From the NCBI RefSeq assembly GCF_900163655.1, contig NZ_FWFG01000048.1:62001-126000 (forward strand): DNA of 64,000 bases, given 5' to 3'. The notes beneath the pieces are model-generated. The model saw only the letters and a list, made by a program, of their open reading frames with translations, did no database searches and was not told where the DNA came from. The translations under genes were made by a program, and so were the position numbers. Below, in pieces: positions 10,562 to 60,289 of this stretch; the first letter of the stretch is position 1; the number at the start of each line of letters is the position of its first letter. Source of the DNA: Brachybacterium nesterenkovii. GTDB lineage: Bacteria; Actinomycetota; Actinomycetes; Actinomycetales; Dermabacteraceae.

Positions 10562-10656
10562 CGCGGCGGGTAGGCGCCCGAGACCGCGGGCAGGCACCCG
10601 AGGCCGCAGGGTGAACCGCTCGGACGTCCTGCCGCGCTGCCGCCCGGGACACCCCT

Positions 10657-10731
10657 GTCCCAAATCTGCAGTCCAGCAGCATCTGCCTCGCATATGCCAG
10701 GGCGCATGCCGCTGGACTGCAGACTCTGGAC
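10657..10731. repeat. 75-nt dispersed palindrome, family A copy 1
   Basis: Intergenic imperfect palindrome, with 13-bp perfect arms (TCTGCAGTCCAGC and its complement at 10665-10677 and 10711-10723) around a GCATATG centre. Three more copies of identical length lie at 22518, 45012 and 47068. Confidence 0.85.
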
Positions 10732-10823
10732 GCCCCCGCACTGGGACCAGTCGGCTCAGCGGTGGCCAGGGCCCCTGCCAGCGGTCGGCTCAGCGGTGGC
10801 CAGGGCCCCTGCCAGCGGTCGGC

Positions 10824-13400: not shown

Positions 13401-16400
13401 TCACCGGGTCTCGTCGATGACCTCGAGCACCTGTCCGCCCAGCAGCTGCTCGACGAGCTCCTGCGGGCGGCGCGTCGACACCTGGGCGTCCTCGTCGTCA
13501 CGGGTGGCACCGCCGGTCAGGTCCTCAGGCGCTCCGGGCTCGGCGTGGCCCGCGCCGCGTCCGCGCTGCGTTGCCGGGGTGGTGCGGCGCGAGGCGAGCG
13601 CGGCCTCGCGGGCGAGCGCCGCGCCGGAGGCACCGTGCGGGCGAGCCTGCTCCTGTGCGGTGTCGGGCCACGGCGCCCGGTCGGGCCGCTGCGAGGGTGC
13701 GGTCTGTATCTGCTCGGGCGGGGCGCTCTGGGCAGACGGGACGCTCTGCGCGGACGAGGCGCTCGGTCCGCCGCCCGTGCCCAGCGTGATCGGCGCACCC
13801 CAGCCGTCGTCCGCTTCGGCAACCGCCGATGCCGGAGGAGACGATGGCGCAGGCTCCGACTCGGATGCGAAAGCGGGGGCAGAAGCCGGAGCGGGGGATG
13901 TCGAGGCGGGCGGCGCCGACGGGGCGACGGGCTCATCGCGCCCCACCGCGATGTCCGGGGCGACGTCATCGGCACCGGTCGCCGACGGACGGGATGGCTC
14001 CTGCTCGCCCGCGGCCGTGGCCGGGGACCCTGCGGAGCGCTCTCGGGGCTCGGTGCGCACCGGGCGGCCCTCAGCGAGGGCCGTGCGCAGGGCCGTCTGG
14101 CCGTGGGTGCGCGGCTCGTCGTCGGGGACGTCGTCGCGGGAGTCGTCGGGGATCGTGAGCGGCGTCAGGTCCCCCGCGCCCGCCGGAGCGGCCGGAGCGG
14201 AAGCGCTCTGTTCGCCGGTCTGCGCCGGTGCGGACGTTCCCGCGGGAACGTCGTCGGGCTCTTCCGGCACCGCCTGCGCGGCACCGCCGTGGTCCCAGGG
14301 GTCCGGCGGGTAGGGGTCATCCGGCTCGGGCGGGAAGTCTTCGTCGGGAACGTACGGCGGCACCGGGGCGGACGGCCCCCGACCCTGCGGGCGGCCGGGC
14401 TGCGCGGTCTGTCCATGCCCTTGGCCCTGGCCTTGGCCTTGGCCTTGGCCTTGGCCTTGGCCCTGGCCCTGGCCCTGGCCCTGGCCCTGGCCCTGAGCAT
14501 TGTGCCTCGGGCCGCCGTTCGACGGCTGCGGGCGCACTGCGGGTCCGCCCTGTCGCGAAGCGGCCTGCGGATCGGCGTTCGACGGCGCATCCCGCGGCGG
14601 CTCACTGCCCGGCCCACTCGGCCGACGTCCACCGGGCTGAGGCCCTCCAGGTCGCGGCCCCCCGGGCTGGGACGCGCCCGGCTGGGCCCCGCCCGGTCGG
14701 GGCCCGTCGTTCCCACCTGCCGGAGGCCCCGCGGGTCCCTCGCCGACGACGCCCTCGACCGTCACGTCCCGGCGCATCACCCGCCGCACCGCATCCGCCA
14801 CGTTGGCGGCGCCCGTACCCCGCTGGAACGCGGCGAGGAGCCCCTCCGTGCGAAAGGCGAGCACGAGCGCTCCCCCGCGGACGGAGTGGACCTCCGCGTT
14901 CTGGGAGACGAGCGCCCACGAGGGGCGGCGGATCTGCTGGAGCTCATCGAGGATCGCGGACCAGTGCCCGCGCACCTCGTCGGCGTCGAGGCCGTCCCCG
15001 GCAGGGGAACCAGCAGGGGCGGGAGAAGCGGTATCGGCACCGGCGTCGGTTCCGGGAGCGGGAGCGGGAGCGGGAGCGGGAGCGGGAGCGGGAGCGTCGG
15101 ACGATGCGCTGCCCGTCGCAGGGGCACCCTCGGTGACATGCGGCGCATCCGGTGCAGCCGTCACGGCAACGGGATCCGCCGACGCCCGCCCGCCATGAAC
15201 GCCCTGCTCAGGGGCGATGCCGCCGTGCATCGGCGCGGCACGGTCGACGTCCGCTCGATCCGCGGGGGTCTCGTGCGCAGTTCCGCCGTCGGGCGCGCGA
15301 TCGTCACCGGATCCGCCCTCCCCGAATCCGCTCTGGTCGGATCCGCCCTGGCCTGATCCGCCCTGGCCGATCGGGGCCACCGGCCCCCAGCCGTCGTCCA
15401 CCACGGGCGCCGCGGTGCCCGCCGTCTGCTCGCGGCCAGCGGGCTCTGCCACCTGCGCGGGGCTCCCTCCCGGGACACCGTCGCGTGCGCGCCGCGCGGC
15501 CTCCGCCTGCTGCTGGGCGATCTGCCGGGCCCGGTCTCGTCCCGAGGCGGCTCCCGCGCCTCCGGCCGGAGCGCCCGAGGGTCCACCGCTCTGCGCCATC
15601 GGTGCACCGCCCGAGGACGATGCACCGGCGTGCGCCGCGGGTGCGGCCTGGGCGCGCTCGTCGCGCAGCACGAGACGCGCGGCGAGCAGCTCGAGGTGCA
15701 GGCGCGGGGAGGTCGCACCCGACATGGTCGACAGGGTCTCGTGCACCAGATCACCGCAGCGCGAGAGATCCGCCGGGTCGGCACCCTGGATCTGGTCGCG
15801 CATGCGCGCGAGCTCATCGGCGGGGTGCTGAGGCAGGAGATCCTCGCCGCGCTCGGGGACGGCGGCCAGCACGATCAGGTCGCGCAGTCGCTCGAGGAGG
15901 TCCTCGACGAAGCGCCGCGGCTCCTGGCCCGAGGAGATCACCTGCTCGACCGCCGCGTACATCGCCTGCGCATCCCGCCGCGAGATCGCCTCGACCGCGG
16001 CGTTCAGGAGGGCCGTGTCGGTGAAGCCCAGCAGGGAGATGGCCGTGGCGTGGTCCAGGCCGTCCTCCCCCGCCCCGGCCATGAGCTGGTCGAGCACGGA
16101 GAGGGTGTCGCGGGCCGAGCCGCCGCCGGCGCGGACCACGAGGGGCAGCACGCCCTCCCCCGCGGGCACGTGCTCGGCGGCGCAGATCTCCTCGAGGTAC
16201 GGGGTGAGGATCTGCGGCGGGATCAGCCGGAACGGGTAGTGGTGGGTGCGGGAGCGGATGGTCCCGATGACCTTCTCGGGCTCCGTCGTCGCGAACACGA
16301 ACTTCACGTGCTCGGGCGGCTCCTCCACGAGCTTCAGCAGCGCGTTGAAGCCGGCCGACGTGACCATGTGGGCCTCGTCGATGATGAAGACCTTGAAGCG

Positions 16401-22335: not shown

Positions 22336-22517
22336 CGTTCGGCATGTCGGGAGTGCGGCTCGCGGCACCGGGAGACGCCTGTGCGGCCGGACCGCCCGCC
22401 CGGGCCCCTGATACCGCGGCCCGGGTTCCGCCTCAGCTCGAGGCACCTCGCACCCAGGCTCCGACGCAGCTCGAGCGCTTCCATTCCCCCGCGCCGCACC
22501 CCGGCTTCGGCGTGCGC

Positions 22518-22592
22518 GTCCAGAACATGCTCCCCAGCGGCATGCGCCCCGGATATTGCAGGGCGCATGCCGTCTCACTGCATCTTCTGGAC
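22518..22592. repeat. 75-nt dispersed palindrome, family A copy 2
   Basis: Begins GTCCAG and ends CTGGAC. The perfect inner arms GGCATGCGCC and GGCGCATGCC flank a centre with GATATT. It lies between the tRNA-Ser and metallopeptidase genes, in a 460-bp gap that otherwise holds only the tRNA terminator. Confidence 0.85.
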
Positions 22593-22751
22593 GCCAGACG
22601 CTCGTGAGCGCACCCGGGCGGCGTGCCAGCGGGCCGCCCGCAGCCGACCGCCCGCCTGGGCAATCGCACCCCCGGCCCCCTCCCTCTGAGTACGCTGGCG
22701 CCGAGGCCCGGAGACCGTCCGTGCGCCGCGACACGACCGCGCAGAAGGACC

Positions 22752-42059: not shown

Positions 42060-43175
42060 ATGGGCACTGCGGACGAGGGTGAACGGCCGGGCCGCGGTCA
42101 CTCCGACTCCGGCGGGAGTCCCCTCCGCCCGGACCATGCGCACGCGGGCACGGGCACCCCCGGCCACGAGCTCGCACACCCGGGCGCGCAATCCCCGCCC
42201 CAGGCGCACGCGCACCCGAGCAGCCATTCCCCCTCCCCTGCACACGGCCACGGCCACGGCCACGGCCACGGCCACGGCCACGGCTCATCGTCCACCGCGC
42301 GCCTCGCCATCGCCGCCGCCCTGACCTGCGGGATCGTCATCGCCCAGGCCGTCGGCACCGTGCTGACCGGCAGCCTCGCGCTCCTCACCGATACCGCGCA
42401 CGCGCTCGTCGACGCCTCGGGCCTGATCATCGCGCTGACCGCCGCCGCGCTCATGCGCCGCCCCGCCACCAGCACCCGCACCTGGGGCCTGGCCCGGCTC
42501 GAGGTGCTCGCGGCGCTGGCGCAGTCGAGCCTGCTGATCGGCGTCGGCGTCTACACCGCGATCGAGGGGATCTCGCGTCTGGCCTCCCCGCCCGCGGTCG
42601 CCGCGCGGGAGCTGCTGGTGTTCGGCGTGATCGGCCTGGCCGCCAACGTCTTCGCGATCCTGGTCCTCGCGGGCGGGCGCGATGCGAGCCTGAACCTGCG
42701 CGCCGCCTTCCTCGAGGTCCTGAACGACGCGCTCGGCTCCGCCGGCGTCATCGCCGCAGCGATCATCATCGAGACCACGGGCTTCCTGCGCGCCGATGCG
42801 CTCGCGGGCCTGTTCATCGCCGCCCTGATCGTCCCGCGCGCCCTGCGGATCCTGCGCGAGACCGTCCGCATCCTCCTCGAATCCGTGCCGGCGGGCATCG
42901 ATCTCGACGATGTCCGCAGCCACCTGCTCGAGCTCGAGCACGTGCGGGGCGTCCACGACCTGCACGCCTCGACGATCGGCACCGGCCAGCCCGTGCTCTC
43001 GGCCCACGTGGTGGTCGATGCCAGATGTTTCGAGACCGCCCATGCGCTGCAGATCCTGCGGGACGTCCACGAGTGCGTGCGCACCCACTTCCCCGTCGCC
43101 TTCGAGCACGCCACGATCCAGCTCGAGACGCTCGAGATCGCCCGCGCCGAGGAGCCGCACGGCCTGCACGCGTGA
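42060..43175 (+). CDS. Cation diffusion facilitator (Zn/Cd/Co efflux)
   Basis: 371-residue CDF exporter with six helices. A 75-residue cytoplasmic N-terminus is rich in His, Pro and Gly and ends in seven His-Gly pairs encoded by a GGCCAC hexanucleotide repeat, presumably a metal buffer. The transport site is seen in LLTDTAHALVDASG (TM2, HxxxD) and FLEVLNDALGSAG (TM5, where relatives have HxxxD and this protein has NDALG). The C-terminal domain ESVPAGIDLDDVRSHL...VHDLHA is typical. Proton-coupled export of Zn(II) or similar is inferred. Confidence 0.92.
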   Translation: MGTADEGERPGRGHSDSGGSPLRPDHAHAGTGTPGHELAHPGAQSPPQAHAHPSSHSPSPAHGHGHGHGHGHGHGSSSTARLAIAAALTCGIVIAQAVGTVLTGSLALLTDTAHALVDASGLIIALTAAALMRRPATSTRTWGLARLEVLAALAQSSLLIGVGVYTAIEGISRLASPPAVAARELLVFGVIGLAANVFAILVLAGGRDASLNLRAAFLEVLNDALGSAGVIAAAIIIETTGFLRADALAGLFIAALIVPRALRILRETVRILLESVPAGIDLDDVRSHLLELEHVRGVHDLHASTIGTGQPVLSAHVVVDARCFETAHALQILRDVHECVRTHFPVAFEHATIQLETLEIARAEEPHGLHA

Positions 43176-43199
43176 GGCGAGCGCCGGGAACGGGACCCC

Positions 43200-43280
43200 G
43201 TGCTGGAACTGGTAGCCATACGTGCAGACACTCCTCATGAGAGCCGCGTCTGCACGTATGGCTACCAGTTCTGTCAGCAC
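43200..43280. repeat. 81-nt palindrome, family B copy 1
   Basis: A 23-bp perfect inverted repeat (arms 43207-43229 and 43248-43270, containing TAGCCATACGTGCAGAC) with an 18-nt loop, extended by GTGCTG/CAGCAC. It lies between the convergent CDF and MFS genes and contains the MFS stop codon. It may also work as a bidirectional terminator. A diverged copy of the same length is at 45761. Confidence 0.9.
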
Positions 43281-44485
43281 CGCACCGGCGCGTCGGACCA
43301 GGCGGGGATCAGGCGGTTCATCCGCTCGGACATCGCCAGGCCCAGGCCCGCGAACAGCAGCAGCGCCACCGGGAACAGCCACAGGCCGACCCACCCCGCG
43401 ACGGCGCCGAAAGCCGGCGGCATCAGCGTCGTGCCGAGGTAGGCGGCTGCCATCTGGATGCCGATGATCGCCTGGGAGTTGTTCTTCCCGAAGTTCGCGG
43501 GCGTCGAGTGGATGATCGCCGGGTAGATCGGGGCCGAGCCGAGGCCGGCGATGACCAGGCCGGCGAGCGCGAGGACGGGCGTGGGCAGCGGCAGCAGGAG
43601 CAGCAGCGCGCCGATGCCGACGAGCGTGAAGCCGCCGCGGATCAGCTGACGGTCCCCGATGCGATCGGCGACGAAGCCCGCGAGGAAGCGTCCGCCGGTG
43701 ACGCCGAGGAGGTACATCGCGGCGAACGTCGCCGCCGTCGCGGTGTCCACCCCGCGAGCGGAGACGAGGTAGGTCGAGGCCCACAGCATCGCGGTCGACT
43801 CGAGGGCGCAGTAGGCGAAGAACGTGGCCAGGATCAGCACGACGCCGGGGATCCGCAGCGCGGTCGCCAGCGGCACATGCCCGCCGGGACGCTCCTCGGC
43901 CTCGCCGTTCTCGTCGACCGGCACCGGGCGGGCGCGATCGACCTTCCCCCACAGCGGGATCGCGACGACCAGGGCGATCACTAAGGCCACCTGGATGATG
44001 CCGACGGTCAGGTAGGCGCTGGACCAGCCCGCCCCCATCGACAGGGCGGTGCCCATGATGAACGGGCTAATCGAGGCGCCGACGCCCCAGAAGCTGTGCA
44101 GCCAGTTCATGTGGCGGGCCGCGTAGTGCAGTGCCACGTAGTTGTTGAGGGCGGCGTCGACCGCTCCGGCGCCCAGGCCGTACGGGATCGCCCACAGGCA
44201 CAGCATCCAGAACGCGCTGGAGAACGAGAATCCCAGCAGGGCGACGGCCGTCATGCCCACGCTCACGGCCGTGACGACGCTCGCGCCCAGACGCCGGGTG
44301 AGGCGCTCCGAGGCGAGGCTCGAGACGATCGTGCCGGCGGCGATGATCATCGAGACGATGCCGGCGAAGGCGACGGGGACGTCGAGCTCGCCGTGCATGG
44401 CGGGCCAGCCGGCGCCGAGGAGGGCGTCGGGGAGGCCGAGGCTGATGAAGGCGATGTAGATGATCGCGAGGAGGAGCGCGTACAC
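43274..44485 (-). CDS. MFS transporter
   Basis: 403-residue twelve-helix major facilitator resembling the fucose/glucose permease-like or FucP-type branch. Seen: LGLPDALLGAGWPAMHGELDV, GLGAGAVDAALNNYVALHYAARHMNWLHSFWGVGA, a strong subfamily signature, and GLGSAPIYPAIIHSTPANFGKNNSQAIIGIQMAAAYLGT. Predicted sugar or drug:proton antiport or symport. The start is GTG with only a weak AAAGG far upstream. The last codon and stop fall inside the family B palindrome. Substrate unknown. Confidence 0.88.
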   Translation of the reverse strand: MYALLLAIIYIAFISLGLPDALLGAGWPAMHGELDVPVAFAGIVSMIIAAGTIVSSLASERLTRRLGASVVTAVSVGMTAVALLGFSFSSAFWMLCLWAIPYGLGAGAVDAALNNYVALHYAARHMNWLHSFWGVGASISPFIMGTALSMGAGWSSAYLTVGIIQVALVIALVVAIPLWGKVDRARPVPVDENGEAEERPGGHVPLATALRIPGVVLILATFFAYCALESTAMLWASTYLVSARGVDTATAATFAAMYLLGVTGGRFLAGFVADRIGDRQLIRGGFTLVGIGALLLLLPLPTPVLALAGLVIAGLGSAPIYPAIIHSTPANFGKNNSQAIIGIQMAAAYLGTTLMPPAFGAVAGWVGLWLFPVALLLFAGLGLAMSERMNRLIPAWSDAPVRC

Positions 44486-44765
44486 GGCGGGAGGCGGTGC
44501 CTTTCGGGGACGGCTGCTGCGGACGGCAGGCGGCGCGAGCAGGAGGGACCGGGGTCGACACGTCTGCGGATGAGCTCGCGAGGGGCGTCGATCGCACGGC
44601 GACCGGGCGCTGCCCCATCGCCGTGGGACCAGGGTACCCAGAAATAGGTGACCACATTTATTTAGTCGGGCGCCGCGTCCTCCGCCGGGCGCTCAGGTCG
44701 CCCACGGAGCTCCGGTCCGACTCGCGCTCCGTCTCCCATCCGCTCCCGACATCCGGTCCGTTGTT

Positions 44766-44947
44766 CCCCACCTCCGATCGGTGCTCCGCCTCCGATCCGT
44801 TCCCGACCTCCACTCCGCTGTTCCCCGTCTCCGGGCCGCGCTCCGTCCCCCGTCCGCTCCCCACCTCCGATCGGTGCTCCGCCTCCGATCCGTTCCCGAC
44901 CTCCACTCCGCTGTTCCCCGCCTCCGGGCCGCGCTCGGTCCCCCGTC
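44766..44947. repeat. 93-bp tandem duplication, intergenic
   Basis: Two copies of a 93-bp unit (starting CCCCACCTCCGATCGG) about 96% alike, inside a 650-bp gap between the MFS and VOC genes. The unit itself is built from CTCCGATCC-like sub-repeats. No gene is supported here. Confidence 0.85.
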
Positions 44948-45011
44948 GTCGCCTCCTGCGCGGAACGGCACACGCACCGGTGTCCCTTCGCCGCGCACTC
45001 CTGCGGTACGC

Positions 45012-45086
45012 GTCCAGAATCTGCAGTCCAGCGGCATGCGCCCCGCATATGGCGAGGCACGTGCCGTCTCGATGCATTCTGCGGAC
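45012..45086. repeat. 75-nt dispersed palindrome, family A copy 3
   Basis: Begins GTCCAGAATCTGCAGTCCAG, centre CCGCATATGG. It shares its first half almost exactly with copy 1 and its later GTCTC-GATGCAT part with copies 2 and 4. Confidence 0.85.
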
Positions 45087-45138
45087 CGAGCCGCCCGGTC
45101 CCACATCCCATCGCTGCGCGCTGTGGTCTCCTGGTGCC

Positions 45139-45558
45139 ATGGCTCCCGCTCCCGCCCTCGTCCCCGAGCTCGCCGTCACCGACTGCGCCGCCTCTCGGCG
45201 ATTCTGGTGCGACCTGCTGGGCTTCATCGTGCTCTACGACCGTCCCGAAGAGGGCTTTGCCTATCTGGCCTGCGGCGATGCGCACGTGATGCTCGACCAG
45301 ATCGGCCTGGGGCGGACATGGCGCACCGGCGGATTCGAGAAGCCGCTCGGGCGCGGGATGAATCTGCAGATCTCCGTGGACGACCTCGACGCACCGCTGG
45401 CTCGTCTCGCCGCGGAGGACTGGCCGCTGTTCCTCGAGCCCGAGGAGGTCTGGTACCGCACCGGCGGGGAGGAGTCTGGCGTGCGGCAGTTCCTCGTGCA
45501 GGACCCCGACGGGTATCTCGTGAGGCTGCAGACGTCGCTCGGGCGCCGCAAGGTCTGA
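45139..45558 (+). CDS. VOC-family (glyoxalase/bleomycin resistance) protein
   Basis: 139 residues with two beta-alpha-beta-beta-beta units. PELAVTDCAASRRFWCDLLGFIVLYDR is the family opening, and FLVQDPDGYLVRLQ closes the second unit. Such proteins sequester bleomycin-type antibiotics or catalyse varied metal-dependent reactions; the usual metal residues are not all evident, so a binding role is as likely as catalysis. No good ribosome site precedes the ATG. It stands alone, surrounded by repeats. Confidence 0.88.
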   Translation: MAPAPALVPELAVTDCAASRRFWCDLLGFIVLYDRPEEGFAYLACGDAHVMLDQIGLGRTWRTGGFEKPLGRGMNLQISVDDLDAPLARLAAEDWPLFLEPEEVWYRTGGEESGVRQFLVQDPDGYLVRLQTSLGRRKV

Positions 45559-45588
45559 GCAGCACCGCTTCCGGGGCCGCGCCATGGC

Positions 45589-45650
45589 CCGGGGAGCGGC
45601 TCAGCCCCGGGAAGCGGCTCAGCCCCGGGGAGTAGCTCAGCCCGGGCCGG
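45589..45650. repeat. 18-bp tandem repeat after VOC gene
   Basis: CCGGGGAGCGGCTCAGCC-like unit, three to four copies with small changes. Confidence 0.75.
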
Positions 45651-45760
45651 GATTCATACCGTCGACAACGCGGTCGACCCTGCGACCGCCCCACGCGGGC
45701 CGATGGCCCGACGGGAGCACACGGCGTCGGCGAGCACCGCCGACATGTATGCCCACCAGC

Positions 45761-45841
45761 GTTGCGAGAACCGGTAGCCATACGTGCAGACACCGCCTCC
45801 ACGGGCGTCGTCCGCACGCATAGCGACCACTTCTGTCAGCG
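45761..45841. repeat. 81-nt palindrome, family B copy 2
   Basis: Same length and layout as 43200-43280. The left arm GGTAGCCATACGTGCAGACA is identical. The right arm has diverged (CGCACGCATAGCGACCACTTCTGTCAGC). Confidence 0.8.
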
Positions 45842-46024
45842 CTCCCCCGCCACTCGTGCACGAGGGCTTTTCCCCGCACCCGACGCCCGGCGATCACGGT
45901 CCGCCGCAGAGCGACCATCACCCTTCTCCTCGGCCCGCCCCGTGAACGCATGCACCGCCGCCGCGCGCACCACGCGCGGGCTCCTCGCGGGCACGCGCCC
46001 CATGAGCACGCGCACGCGCCGCGG

Positions 46025-46786
46025 TCAGAGATCCTCGAGCGCCTCCGGGGTCTCCGGGAGGATCTGGCCGCCGTCGACCACGATGCCCTGGCCGGTGATG
46101 TACCGCGCCCCGTCGAAGGCGAGGAAGGCGACGGCCTCGCCGATGTCCGCGGGCTCCCCGAGGAACCCGGCGGGGACGGAGCGCGCCATCCGGTCCATGT
46201 ACTCCTGCCCCAGCTCCCGCAGCCCCGGGGTCACGATGTTGCCCGGGAGCACGGCGTTGACCGTGACGGAGCGGCGGGCCAGCTCGATCGCCGCGGAGCG
46301 CACGAAGCCCATCTGCGCGGCCTTCGTCGCCCCGTAGTGCGACCACGCCGGGAAGCCCGTGATGTTCCCGGTGATCGAGCTGGTCACGACGATGCGCCCT
46401 CGGCCGGACGCCTCGAGTGCGGGGATCGCGGCCTGCACGGCGTGGATCGTGCCCTTGACGTTGATGTCGAAGATGGCGTCGATGTCCGCATCGGTCATAG
46501 CGTCGATCCGGGCCTGCGGGTACACCCCGGCGTTGGACGCCAGGATCGACAGTCCGCCCAGCTCGGCGACGACGTCGGCGACCACGCGTCGGCACGCATC
46601 GGCGTCCCGGACGTCGAGCACATGGGCGATGGCCCCTGTCTCGCGGGCCTGCGCGCACTCCTCCTCGGTGACCCCGGTGACGGCCACCCGGGCGCCGTGC
46701 GCGCGCAGGCGCTCGGCGATCCCGGCGCCGATGCCGAGCGTCCCTCCGGTGACCAGAGCGGTGCGGCCCTCCAGCAGTGCGGTCAT
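46025..46786 (-). CDS. Short-chain dehydrogenase/reductase
   Basis: 253-residue classical SDR. The NAD(P) site is TGGTLGIGAGIA, followed by SNAGVY (the NNAG motif), the catalytic Ser in TSSITGN, Tyr-x-x-x-Lys in HYGATKAA, and the C-terminal GQGIVVDGGQILPE. AGGAGG lies 8 nt before the ATG at 46786. Members oxidise or reduce sugars, polyols or acyl chains; the substrate cannot be read here. Monocistronic. Confidence 0.92.
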   Translation of the reverse strand: MTALLEGRTALVTGGTLGIGAGIAERLRAHGARVAVTGVTEEECAQARETGAIAHVLDVRDADACRRVVADVVAELGGLSILASNAGVYPQARIDAMTDADIDAIFDINVKGTIHAVQAAIPALEASGRGRIVVTSSITGNITGFPAWSHYGATKAAQMGFVRSAAIELARRSVTVNAVLPGNIVTPGLRELGQEYMDRMARSVPAGFLGEPADIGEAVAFLAFDGARYITGQGIVVDGGQILPETPEALEDL

Positions 46787-47067
46787 TCCCGATGCCTCCT
46801 CATGCGTCGCTGCGATGCGGCGCCGCGTCGGGGGGCCGTGCGTGCGGCCCTGCGACGCCTGGCTCCCTCCATCCACCGTAGCCCGGGGGCGGCGGGGGCG
46901 GGGCGGGGTCCGTGAGCCGGTGAGCGGGCCGGTTGCGAGCGCCGGGAGTGAGCCGTGCTGGCGGGCGGGAGCGGGCAGGGTCGCGTGTGCCGGGGAACGG
47001 TGGCGGCACGTGTCGGGGACAGGCTGTGCGAGGGCCGCGCACGTGGGGGAAGGACGGGGCGAGAGCC

Positions 47068-47142
47068 GTCCAGAAAATGCAGTGGGACGGCATCTGCCTC
47101 GCCCATGGCGGGTCGCATGCCGCCTCGATGCATGTTCGGGAC
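47068..47142. repeat. 75-nt dispersed palindrome, family A copy 4
   Basis: Begins GTCCAG and ends CGGGAC; GGCATCTGCCTCGCCCATGG centre, with the CGCATGCCG-CCTCGATGCAT right half. It is the only recognisable feature in the 413-bp gap between the SDR and the next membrane-protein gene. Confidence 0.82.
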
Positions 47143-47199
47143 GAGGCGGCGAGCATGGCGGGGTCGATCATCACCGCACCCGCCCGTCGACGCGGTCCC

Positions 47200-48075
47200 T
47201 CAGCGATGCACTCGCCGCGCCAGCAGCGCGAGCGCCCCGATCCCGAGCAGCTGGATGACGACCGAGACGACAGTGGGCACGAGGCCCAGAAGGTACCCGG
47301 CGTACATCGCGAAGGAGTGCAGGAAGAGGAAGGAGACCGCCGTCGAACAGACGGTGGCCGCGACCGCGACCACGACGGCACCGAGCAGCAGGATGGGGCG
47401 GTAGCGGCGCGCGAGCACCCAGGCGCCGATCACGAGCGAGACCTCGATGAGGCCGATGACACCCGTGGACAGCAGGTGGAACACGCGGAAGGTCTCGACC
47501 TCCATCTGCGCCAGCGCCATGCCTGCGAAGAGCGAGAGGACGTATGCGGCACCGATGCCCCACACGAGGGCGCCGACCACGGCGCCTGTCGCCCAGGCCC
47601 TCGAGGCCACCGGCGTCCGCATGAGCCAGATGCCGACGACGAGGACCGCAGTGACGGCGAGCGCCGTTCCGAAGGGGACCAGGCGCGCGAGAAGGTATCC
47701 CGCACCCATCTCGCCGGGGGCATTCAGCAGCGAACGAATGATGAGGGCCGAGATCAGGGCCGTCGGGATGCTCGCGGCGATCCCCAGGAGGAACACCACG
47801 ACCCCGACTGTGTCGCGCGGGCCGCGGGGCCCCGGAGTCGCTGCGCTCGGCGTCCCCGGTACGGGGCCAGCAGACGGTGCGCCGGCCGCGAGGTCCGTCG
47901 ACGGTGCTCCTGCCACGGCGCCCGTCGACGGCGCACCCGTCGGGGAGGCGCCCATCGCCGTCGGGCTCGGATCACCTGGCGTCTGCGACGTCGCTCCCGG
48001 ACCCGTCGGCCCCTGACCGCTCGGTCCCGCCGGTGAGATCGCAGAGGGGTCCTGCATCGGCCGCCATCCGTCCAT
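47200..48075 (-). CDS. Small integral membrane protein, unknown
   Basis: 291 residues, not recognised. The N-terminal 90 residues are a disordered Pro/Gly/Ala/Ser/Thr segment with a repeated GAPSTG-like motif. Six hydrophobic helices follow, spaced about 30 residues apart. The shape resembles many actinobacterial uncharacterised membrane proteins with cytoplasmic Pro-rich tails. Two ATGs are possible (48075 and 48057). The 285 bp upstream, towards the Dyp peroxidase gene, hold no other gene. Confidence 0.7.
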   Translation of the reverse strand: MDGWRPMQDPSAISPAGPSGQGPTGPGATSQTPGDPSPTAMGASPTGAPSTGAVAGAPSTDLAAGAPSAGPVPGTPSAATPGPRGPRDTVGVVVFLLGIAASIPTALISALIIRSLLNAPGEMGAGYLLARLVPFGTALAVTAVLVVGIWLMRTPVASRAWATGAVVGALVWGIGAAYVLSLFAGMALAQMEVETFRVFHLLSTGVIGLIEVSLVIGAWVLARRYRPILLLGAVVVAVAATVCSTAVSFLFLHSFAMYAGYLLGLVPTVVSVVIQLLGIGALALLARRVHR

Positions 48076-50390: not shown

Positions 50391-50567
50391 GGGTGCTCCT
50401 TGGATGGGCGTGCTCGCGCATCGGTGCGCGGGCGCAGGACGAACGGTGTCGAAGAAGGGATGGGGCCGATGAGCGATCCCCGGTGGATGCCGCGGTGCCG
50501 AGCCGGTGGCAGCCGTGCCGGTGGGAGCCGTGCGGTAGCAGCCGGTCCGTGTGCAGACGCCGCGGGC

Positions 50568-50663
50568 GCCGGTCCCGTCGATCGCGCGGGTGCCGGTCCC
50601 GTCGATCGCGCGGGTGCCGGTCCCGTCGATCGCGCGGCTGCCGGTCGCGTCGATCGCGCACAG
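50568..50663. repeat. 24-bp tandem repeat, four copies
   Basis: GCCGGTCCCGTCGATCGCGC-GGGT three times and a fourth diverged copy, in the 520-bp leader region of the copper-chaperone gene. Each unit contains CGATCG. Nothing else is recognisable in this gap. Confidence 0.9.
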
Positions 50664-51651: not shown

Positions 51652-51795
51652 GCTGACATTGTGCCTGGAAACCCGCGCGAGCGGGGCACGGTGCGGTCGA
51701 GGGGGCCGGGGCGACGGGAGTTCCGGGCCGCGGGAGCACGGGCGGCTCAGAAATCCAGGGCATCAGGAGCGCAGACGACGCGGTTCCCCCACCCC

Positions 51796-51874
51796 GATGG
51801 GAAGTGCCGCATGCATGCGTGCCGATAGCCGGTATATGGGCCTATCGGCGCGTATTGCTGCGGTACTTCCCATC
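51796..51874. repeat. 79-nt imperfect palindrome, unique
   Basis: Outer arms GATGGGAAGT / ACTTCCCATC and inner arms GCCGATAG / CTATCGGC around a GTATATGG centre. It lies between the esterase gene and the Met/His-rich protein gene. Similar in size to families A and B but different in sequence. Confidence 0.8.
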
Positions 51875-51905
51875 GCCTCCGTACGACGACTACCCGCGCC
51901 CCCGC

Positions 51906-53146: not shown

Positions 53147-53229
53147 GTGGTCGATTTTCGTCGGCACGGCGACGCGGAGTGGTCGATCTCCGTCGGAAAG
53201 ATGCCGCTGCCCCGACGAAGATCGACCAT
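53147..53229. repeat. Palindromic element with three 18-mers
   Basis: GTGGTCGATTTTCGTCGG at 53147, a near copy at 53179 in the same orientation, and an inverted copy at 53212-53229. The last two form a hairpin with about 20-bp arms. It lies in the 322-bp gap between the esterase and transporter genes; no gene or known motif is seen there. Confidence 0.75.
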
Positions 53230-53304
53230 TCCGCAGGGCGGCGCACGCCAGACGCACGCCCTCGGCGAGGACACCGGCGTCACCTCTCCGACGGGGTCCT
53301 CCCC

Positions 53305-59965: not shown

Positions 59966-60195
59966 GGCGGATCCCGGCGCGCCCTCCGGACAGGGATGGC
60001 GGAGCGGCGCGCGGGTGACGCCCGCTCCCGTGCAGACCGGTCCCGTGCAGACATTCGGCGCGCTGGGGACGCCCGGCCATGCGACGGGACGACGGGCGGG
60101 CGGGGCACCGAGGGACGCCCAGCCCGCCAGCTGCCCCTCGCCTGTTCTGGTCGTTCCACGGGGTGCCGACCGGTCTGCCCGTCGGTCCGCAGCCC

Positions 60196-60252
60196 GTTCT
60201 GGTCACTCCCGGTCGGAATTCACGCCCGATAGCGACGACTTCTGACCAGAAC
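60196..60252. repeat. 57-nt inverted repeat (GTTCTGGTCA arms)
   Basis: GTTCTGGTCA and TGACCAGAAC enclose a centre with GATAGCGACGACTTCTG, which resembles the right end of family B. A further GTTCTGGTC lies at 60144. Located after the GH78 gene. Confidence 0.65.
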
Positions 60253-60289
60253 GCGCTCCCACGCTGAGGGGCGCATCCCCGAGCGCCAT

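Follow-up and report, generated by a model that had tools for sequence, protein, structure and literature searches.

What is a perfect hairpin that fills the gap between two converging genes: a terminator that evolved where it stands, or one copy of a repeat that spreads? The question is raised by a 64,000-nucleotide (nt) stretch of the Brachybacterium nesterenkovii genome (contig NZ_FWFG01000048.1, positions 62,001 to 126,000; hereafter the window, to which coordinates refer unless another locus or contig is named). A first-pass annotation had proposed that a palindrome between two transporter genes in this window is a mobile element co-opted as a terminator. We find that this palindrome, copy 1 of a family that we call A, is one of 18 copies dispersed through the genome, mostly at gene 3′ ends. 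The proposal is partly supported: dispersal of the family is well supported, and movement and termination are what we infer. Overall, we favour with moderate confidence the reading that copy 1 resembles the repetitive extragenic palindromes (REPs) and REP doublets forming hairpins (REPINs) of other bacteria, having multiplied within the genome and persisted after genes, positions at which it is least harmful or most useful.

A perfect palindrome between converging genes

Copy 1 is an 80-nt unit at 43199-43278, without assigned strand, built on the plan TG, two unpaired bases, stem, loop, stem, two unpaired bases, CA. Its 24-nt arms (43206-43229 and 43248-43271, both read on the plus strand) pair at 24 of 24 positions around an 18-nt loop, the middle of which forms a small hairpin of 3 bp and a tetraloop (43234-43243, plus strand); the outer TG and CA are set off from the stem by the two unpaired bases. 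The perfect inverted repeat of the first-pass annotation is real, although its arms had been given as 23 bp and the unit as 81 nt at 43200-43280. The RNA fold of the unit reaches -65 kcal/mol (z -8.8), with none of 200 shuffles equally good, and its palindrome score of 24 is the highest in the window, against a maximum of 14.5 in three order-3 Markov simulations. The palindrome is therefore not a product of chance. A search of 42900-47300 against Rfam returned no family at the gathering score, only three microRNA look-alikes far below threshold.

The flanking genes encode a cation-efflux (CDF) transporter (42060-43175, plus strand), which ends 23 nt before copy 1, and an MFS transporter (43274-44485, minus strand), whose stop codon at 43274-43276 on the minus strand lies inside the unit. 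The convergent setting and the supply of the MFS stop codon had both been recognised correctly. Since similarity to eight congeneric MFS homologues extends to residue 393-399 of 403, copy 1 touches no more than the variable tail of the protein. The unit takes up all but 23 nt of the 98-nt intergenic gap, so that no other sizeable hairpin fits between the stops and a 3′-end role is likely there. Judged from sequence, copy 1 probably forms the 3′ end of both converging genes.

Family A is dispersed through the genome

The B. nesterenkovii genome is a draft of 3,021,972 bases in 119 contigs, with a G+C fraction of 0.728 over the surveyed part. BLAST, pattern and model searches across the whole draft located the 18 family-A copies, and a 19th model match (C117:60434) clusters with another palindrome family. 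The genome-wide arm search suggested in the first-pass annotation bore out the dispersal: an 18-letter arm, allowing up to three mismatches, gave 25 matches, every one inside a family-A unit, compared with a single match for the reversed control. Most copies start with TG and end with CA, and most arms carry GGTAG within the paired region.

The other copy in the window lies at 45761-45840, without assigned strand, in the gap between a glyoxalase/VOC-type gene upstream (45139-45558, plus strand) and a converging short-chain dehydrogenase gene (46025-46786, minus strand). As previously described, it shares the plan of copy 1 in decayed form, keeping 18 of 24 stem pairs; its left arm, taken to be identical to that of copy 1, agrees at 23 of 24 letters with one T/C difference, and the unit ends at 45840 rather than 45841.

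Eight of the 18 copies cluster with other repeats, and two of these eight represent one duplication. The duplicated segment, 225 nt long, 96% identical and present at two places 2 kb apart on a single contig, C11 (L154 9449-9673 and 11504-11727), contains a family-A palindrome together with Z, a 67-nt inverted-repeat element (GGAAGCGGGACTCC...GGAGTCCCGCTTC with CATCTGCCGACCATATG inside). Z occurs within 200 nt of six of the 18 family-A copies, in varying order and on varying sides, and genome-wide it occupies about eight places plus one fragment, with places at L140 9983-10049, L137 122-187, L115 650-716, L154 9609-9675 and 11663-11727, and L016 1011-1072. On the surveyed contigs, with the duplicated pair counted once, four of five Z loci lie within 200 nt of a family-A unit, an association with a chance probability of about 2e-5. 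Another two family-A copies have a palindrome of a different family 34 and 65 nt away.

Relatives keep the pairing under other letters

Searched directly as DNA, the window copy matched none of the 37 congeners examined, and structure models were needed. The structure model R3, built from B. nesterenkovii and units of the congener G012, matched nine of 38 genus genomes at E ≤0.01, B. nesterenkovii included (eight of 37 congeners), with 11 places in G012, three in G009, two each in G033 and G036, and one each in G023, G024, G029 and G037. Strong matches occurred only in G012 (best E 1.5e-20) and G033 (1.4e-10). Those in G009, G023, G024, G029, G036 and G037 were weak (best E 1.7e-6 to 1.1e-4), and the units of these six congeners may be other long palindromes and not true relatives; a CGCATCCACTGGCG-like arm is common to five of them (all but G024), judged in G029 from the first 16 letters.

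Each of eight aligned G012 units is exactly 80 nt long. Their arm columns 22-31 read about ATGGTCRGNC, compared with ACGTGCAGAC in B. nesterenkovii, and the arms of the remaining congeners diverge further than those of G012 from the B. nesterenkovii arms. A gapless alignment of 18 B. nesterenkovii and eight G012 units has 88.8% of cells paired versus 80.5 in shuffles, changes on both sides in 17 of 30 pairs (shuffled mean 13.3) and in 74 cells (34.5 shuffled), and a covariation score of 0.313, as against 0.176 for shuffled and at most 0.114 for slid partners. B. nesterenkovii alone (17 units) shows both-side changes in 10 of 30 pairs versus 6.0 in shuffles. Both-side changes and covariation in excess of shuffles indicate that pairing was kept while the letters were replaced.

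Palindromy could also be maintained at the DNA level, if the units were binding sites for a DNA-binding protein, with a gyrase- or nucleoid-type role, that keeps them palindromic. Dyads suit dimeric proteins, and the stem mismatches described below lack RNA strand polarity. Against this, the pairs at the loop tip are also kept (paired in 78-80% of cells) and have changed on both sides, and the arm letters differ widely between two sister species. We regard a protein-binding site as very improbable.

Beyond the genus, an order-level sample of 297 genomes yielded 11 with matches at E ≤0.001, comprising B. nesterenkovii, three congeners and seven others. Six model matches fall in G306, which belongs to another family of the order; two of its units (L189 1501-1579 and L197 1501-1579) each form a 79-nt palindrome, in which the arm is of the GAACCGGTAG type and the outer ends read GTGTGTT...AAC(A/C)CAC. 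Several of the remaining order-level matches look like unrelated long hairpins. Only B. nesterenkovii matched in a class-level sample of 394 genomes at E ≤1e-4, a stricter filter that loses weak matches. Among 84,980 named genomes, neither the family-A double arm (a pattern that recovers four B. nesterenkovii places outside the window) nor a looser A-type frame (which recovers 11 known places, five in B. nesterenkovii and six in G012) was found at any place; the genome itself or very near ones may be missing from the collection, so these scans show only how narrow the family is.

Placement at gene ends

Gene context was read for 40 units: all 18 from B. nesterenkovii, 10 of the 11 from G012, and a further 12 spread over seven more genomes. 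The set takes in two of the six G306 places and leaves out the only one in G029. Genes were called from codon usage with a home-made program, for which G012 provided the training set in the other genomes. Of these units, 17 sit in convergent, 21 in co-directional and two in divergent gaps, and for 28 of them a stop codon occurs no more than 90 nt away.

Long palindromes as a class (score at least 14 and length at least 45 nt, ordinary strong hairpins included) show the same bias. Convergent, tandem and divergent gaps hold 29, 30 and 3 of them in B. nesterenkovii, versus 11.2, 32.1 and 18.7 expected from the length of gaps of at least 60 nt (p 9e-10), and 31, 41 and 6 in G012, versus 18.6, 41.0 and 18.4 (p 2.5e-4); genic or contig-end palindromes, 17 of 79 and 21 of 99 respectively, stand outside these counts. 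Among 47 tandem palindromes from the B. nesterenkovii sequence and 400 kb of G012, 36 lie closer to the stop codon upstream and 11 to the start codon that follows.

Many families that come and go

The palindrome had been introduced as a second palindrome family. Family A is indeed a family, but one of 17 with multiple copies in the surveyed parts of two genomes. We counted 67 extragenic long palindromes in 727 kb of B. nesterenkovii and 78 in 1.2 Mb of G012, which similarity clustering sorted into 17 families of at least two members (103 palindromes) and 42 singles. Fifteen of the 17 families occur in one species only; common to both are family A, in two forms, and one two-member family. With genic palindromes included, the density per 100 kb is 10.9 in B. 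nesterenkovii and 8.3 in G012, compared with 0.6-1.9 in Markov simulations. Samples of 80 kb gave 2.5, 7.5 and 5.0 per 100 kb in three other congeners, 1.25 in another genus and 5.0 in another family, so not every relative is poorer in palindromes.

Turnover was followed in 161 adjacent ortholog pairs that have the same arrangement in B. nesterenkovii and G012, 71 of them with gaps of at least 60 nt in both. A palindrome is present in both species at four of these gaps, in B. nesterenkovii only at seven, in G012 only at three and in neither at 57 (Fisher p 0.009; p 0.0013 for 51 gaps of at least 100 nt and p 0.03 for 30 gaps of at least 150 nt). None of the four doubly occupied gaps holds the same family in both species, and the convergent gap at 10562-10823 carries a family-B palindrome (F4; 10657-10731, no strand) in B. 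nesterenkovii and a family-A palindrome in the orthologous gap of G012. At five orthologous gaps one species has a family-A unit, and the other species has one at none of them; a hairpin confined to the present site and conserved in sister genomes, the pattern named beforehand as the mark of a plain terminator, was not seen. The occupancy pattern thus indicates that hairpins turn over, yet with a preference for certain gaps, which would be expected if these gaps either need a 3′-end hairpin or attract insertion.

One apparent pair, an A and an A′ unit that follow the same gene in the respective species, is not taken as a single insertion, as the units lie 31 and 399 nt from the gene and do not align. 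The context of the B. nesterenkovii member (C73:58211) is unstable between gene calls.

Further palindromes of the window, all without assigned strand, include family-B units at 22516-22594 and, decayed, at 45006-45086; a decayed B-like palindrome at 47067-47143 that the genome-wide family-B search missed; an F7 unit at 51795-51875 with a gtatatg-type loop; and an F5 unit at 53174-53234 (GGTCGATC..TCGTCGGAA). Family F9 (L136 11936, L142 9942, L148 9251 and L152 17925) consists of almost perfect palindromes of 54-72 nt with an atat/atgt loop, and the G012 family F3 has a loop of the same kind but is a different family. Other repeats in the window are a pair of direct repeats of 90 nt that share 98% identity, lie 93 nt apart and are rich in CTCCGATCC-like motifs, at 44765-44947 between the MFS and glyoxalase genes; tandem arrays at 50561-50656 and 14410-14493, of 24-nt units CGCGGGTGCCGGTCCCGTCGATCG and of TGGCCT/TGGCCC hexamers; and, at 60191-60257, a 15-nt inverted repeat AGCCCGTTCTGGTCA, 14 of 15 positions paired, that flanks 37 nt and resembles a small spaced palindrome of a different type.

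Evidence on termination and spread

Several results weigh against the reading that we favour, some on the side of termination and some on that of spread. No T-run (5 T in 8 bases) follows the stem on any of the 36 sides of the 18 B. nesterenkovii copies. A terminator consensus scan found no sites, although it allows loops of 3-8 nt only and so is no test of the copy 1 hairpin. Counted in transcript orientation, G-U and A-C stem mismatches stand at 25 to 22 in 21 tandem units (p 0.77) and at 40 to 27 in the 47 tandem palindromes (p 0.14); with no G-U excess, there is no clear RNA-level selection. Twelve of the 40 units are more than 90 nt from any stop codon, and much of the placement is explained by promoter avoidance, with no need for a terminator role. 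Gaps with a long palindrome hold ordinary hairpins at a somewhat lower density than gaps without one, at 3.23 versus 3.89 per kb (convergent) and 2.34 versus 3.19 (tandem) in B. nesterenkovii, and at 1.64 versus 3.17 and 2.35 versus 2.90 in G012. This sparsity is no argument for a terminator role, because divergent gaps, which need no terminator, behave alike (1.62 versus 2.05 and 1.01 versus 2.46).

Intrinsic bidirectional terminators are strong hairpins between converging stop codons, and copy 1 is such a hairpin in such a place. It could be that the units are nothing else, having evolved in place and merely sharing a favoured hairpin sequence, as their 3′-end placement, their avoidance of divergent gaps and the abundance of other strong hairpins in these genomes would suggest. 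Family A nevertheless differs from terminators of this type in being a repeated sequence family and in lacking a T-run on either side. Evolution in place also sits poorly with 80-nt families whose copies are many and similar within a genome but differ in letters from one species to the next, and with the conservation of TG and CA outside two unpaired bases. We consider plain terminators a quite unlikely explanation.

With regard to spread, no agent was found in the genomes searched. The Y1_Tnp profile of the REP-associated tyrosine transposases (RAYTs) matched none of the 38 genus genomes, with five of 14 controls positive, and none of six chosen genomes, with the control genomes positive. No target-site duplication was recognised by eye in 17 copies. 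Two gaps in which one species lacks the unit, read closely, revealed no clean insertion, as more than the unit differs. Likewise, no longer element ending in family-A arms was found in the 119-contig draft, which could hide repeated insertion sequences.

These observations bear on the possibility that family A is a miniature inverted-repeat transposable element (MITE), formed from remnant insertion-sequence ends and moved by the transposase of that element. MITEs such as ERIC, RUP and NEMIS, which are named in PMC3733652, are likewise small, non-coding, inverted-repeat elements dispersed near genes, and the inverted-repeat unit, the TG...CA ends of most copies, the multiple copies and the species restriction of family A would fit. 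However, all 25 arm matches in the draft fall in palindromes and no longer element is bounded by any of them, and neither a transposon with family-A ends nor, by eye, a target duplication was found. A MITE origin therefore strikes us as rather unlikely.

Comparison with REPs and REPINs

A REPIN is described as a symmetrical hairpin with two conserved inverted arms and a looser spacer (PMC3116915). GTAG-type REPs are tied to RAYT transposases, and tagged REPs have been described chiefly from Proteobacteria, with a few further phyla; the phyla listed do not include Actinobacteria, a word absent from the main text of that paper (PMC3733652). REPs exceed 100 copies per genome (PMC2817692). Judged by those parts of PMC3116915 and PMC3733652 that describe these repeats, family A is like REPs and REPINs in being a symmetrical hairpin of about 80 nt with conserved inverted arms, a looser spacer and compensatory changes; in its extragenic position, mainly in convergent or co-directional gaps downstream of genes; and in belonging to a genome with several families, many of them species-specific. 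It differs in stem length (24 bp versus 6-13 bp for REP stems; PMC3116915, PMC3733652) and copy number (18 versus more than 100; PMC2817692). Moreover, no unpaired GTAG or CGTC end tag was seen, the GGTAG of family A being paired and missing from the matched arms of other congeners, and no RAYT was found in the 38 genomes of the genus. We therefore call family A REP-like but not a REP, on account of the missing RAYT/Y1 transposase, the missing unpaired GTAG tag and the low copy number.

If family A were a genuine REPIN family driven by a RAYT that has since been lost or that the profile fails to detect, this would account for the REPIN-like size and plan, the GGTAG in most B. nesterenkovii arms, the compensatory changes and the 3′ placement, and CGTC-type REPs have been reported without a dedicated transposase (PMC3733652). 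The absence of Y1_Tnp matches in the genomes searched, the position of GTAG inside the paired arm and its absence from the matched arms of other congeners speak against a RAYT-driven origin, which we judge quite improbable. The clusters of mixed palindromic repeats near genes, seen for eight of the 18 B. nesterenkovii copies, recall the bacterial interspersed mosaic elements outlined in PMC3733652 and PMC2817692, from which family A differs in its larger units and in showing no fixed order or orientation. Literature searches, which covered few subscription journals, found no description of such elements in Actinobacteria.

On the reading that we favour, a REP-like palindrome multiplied within the genome, a trans-acting agent would copy the units through a folded or cruciform form. 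Once placed, the stem would act as a two-way 3′-end hairpin, either as a transcription stop or as a block at the mRNA end, and at copy 1 such a hairpin would serve both the CDF and the MFS gene.

Implications for the genus

More tentatively, and with less than even confidence, we suggest that the genus hosts a class of large extragenic palindromes independent of RAYTs, in which many families coexist per genome, each family keeps a fixed hairpin plan while its arms are co-rewritten between species, and families replace one another in gene-end gaps. If this is true, such a class would imply an as-yet-unrecognised enzyme or copying process that multiplies and re-matches hairpins at gene ends, with hairpin-templated repair or an unrecognised recombinase as candidate processes. 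A varied and fast-changing set of large palindromes, present in high-GC bacteria where no RAYT can be detected, would offer a clean test of how hairpins spread, and it would supply natural two-way gene-end hairpins that lack a T-run.

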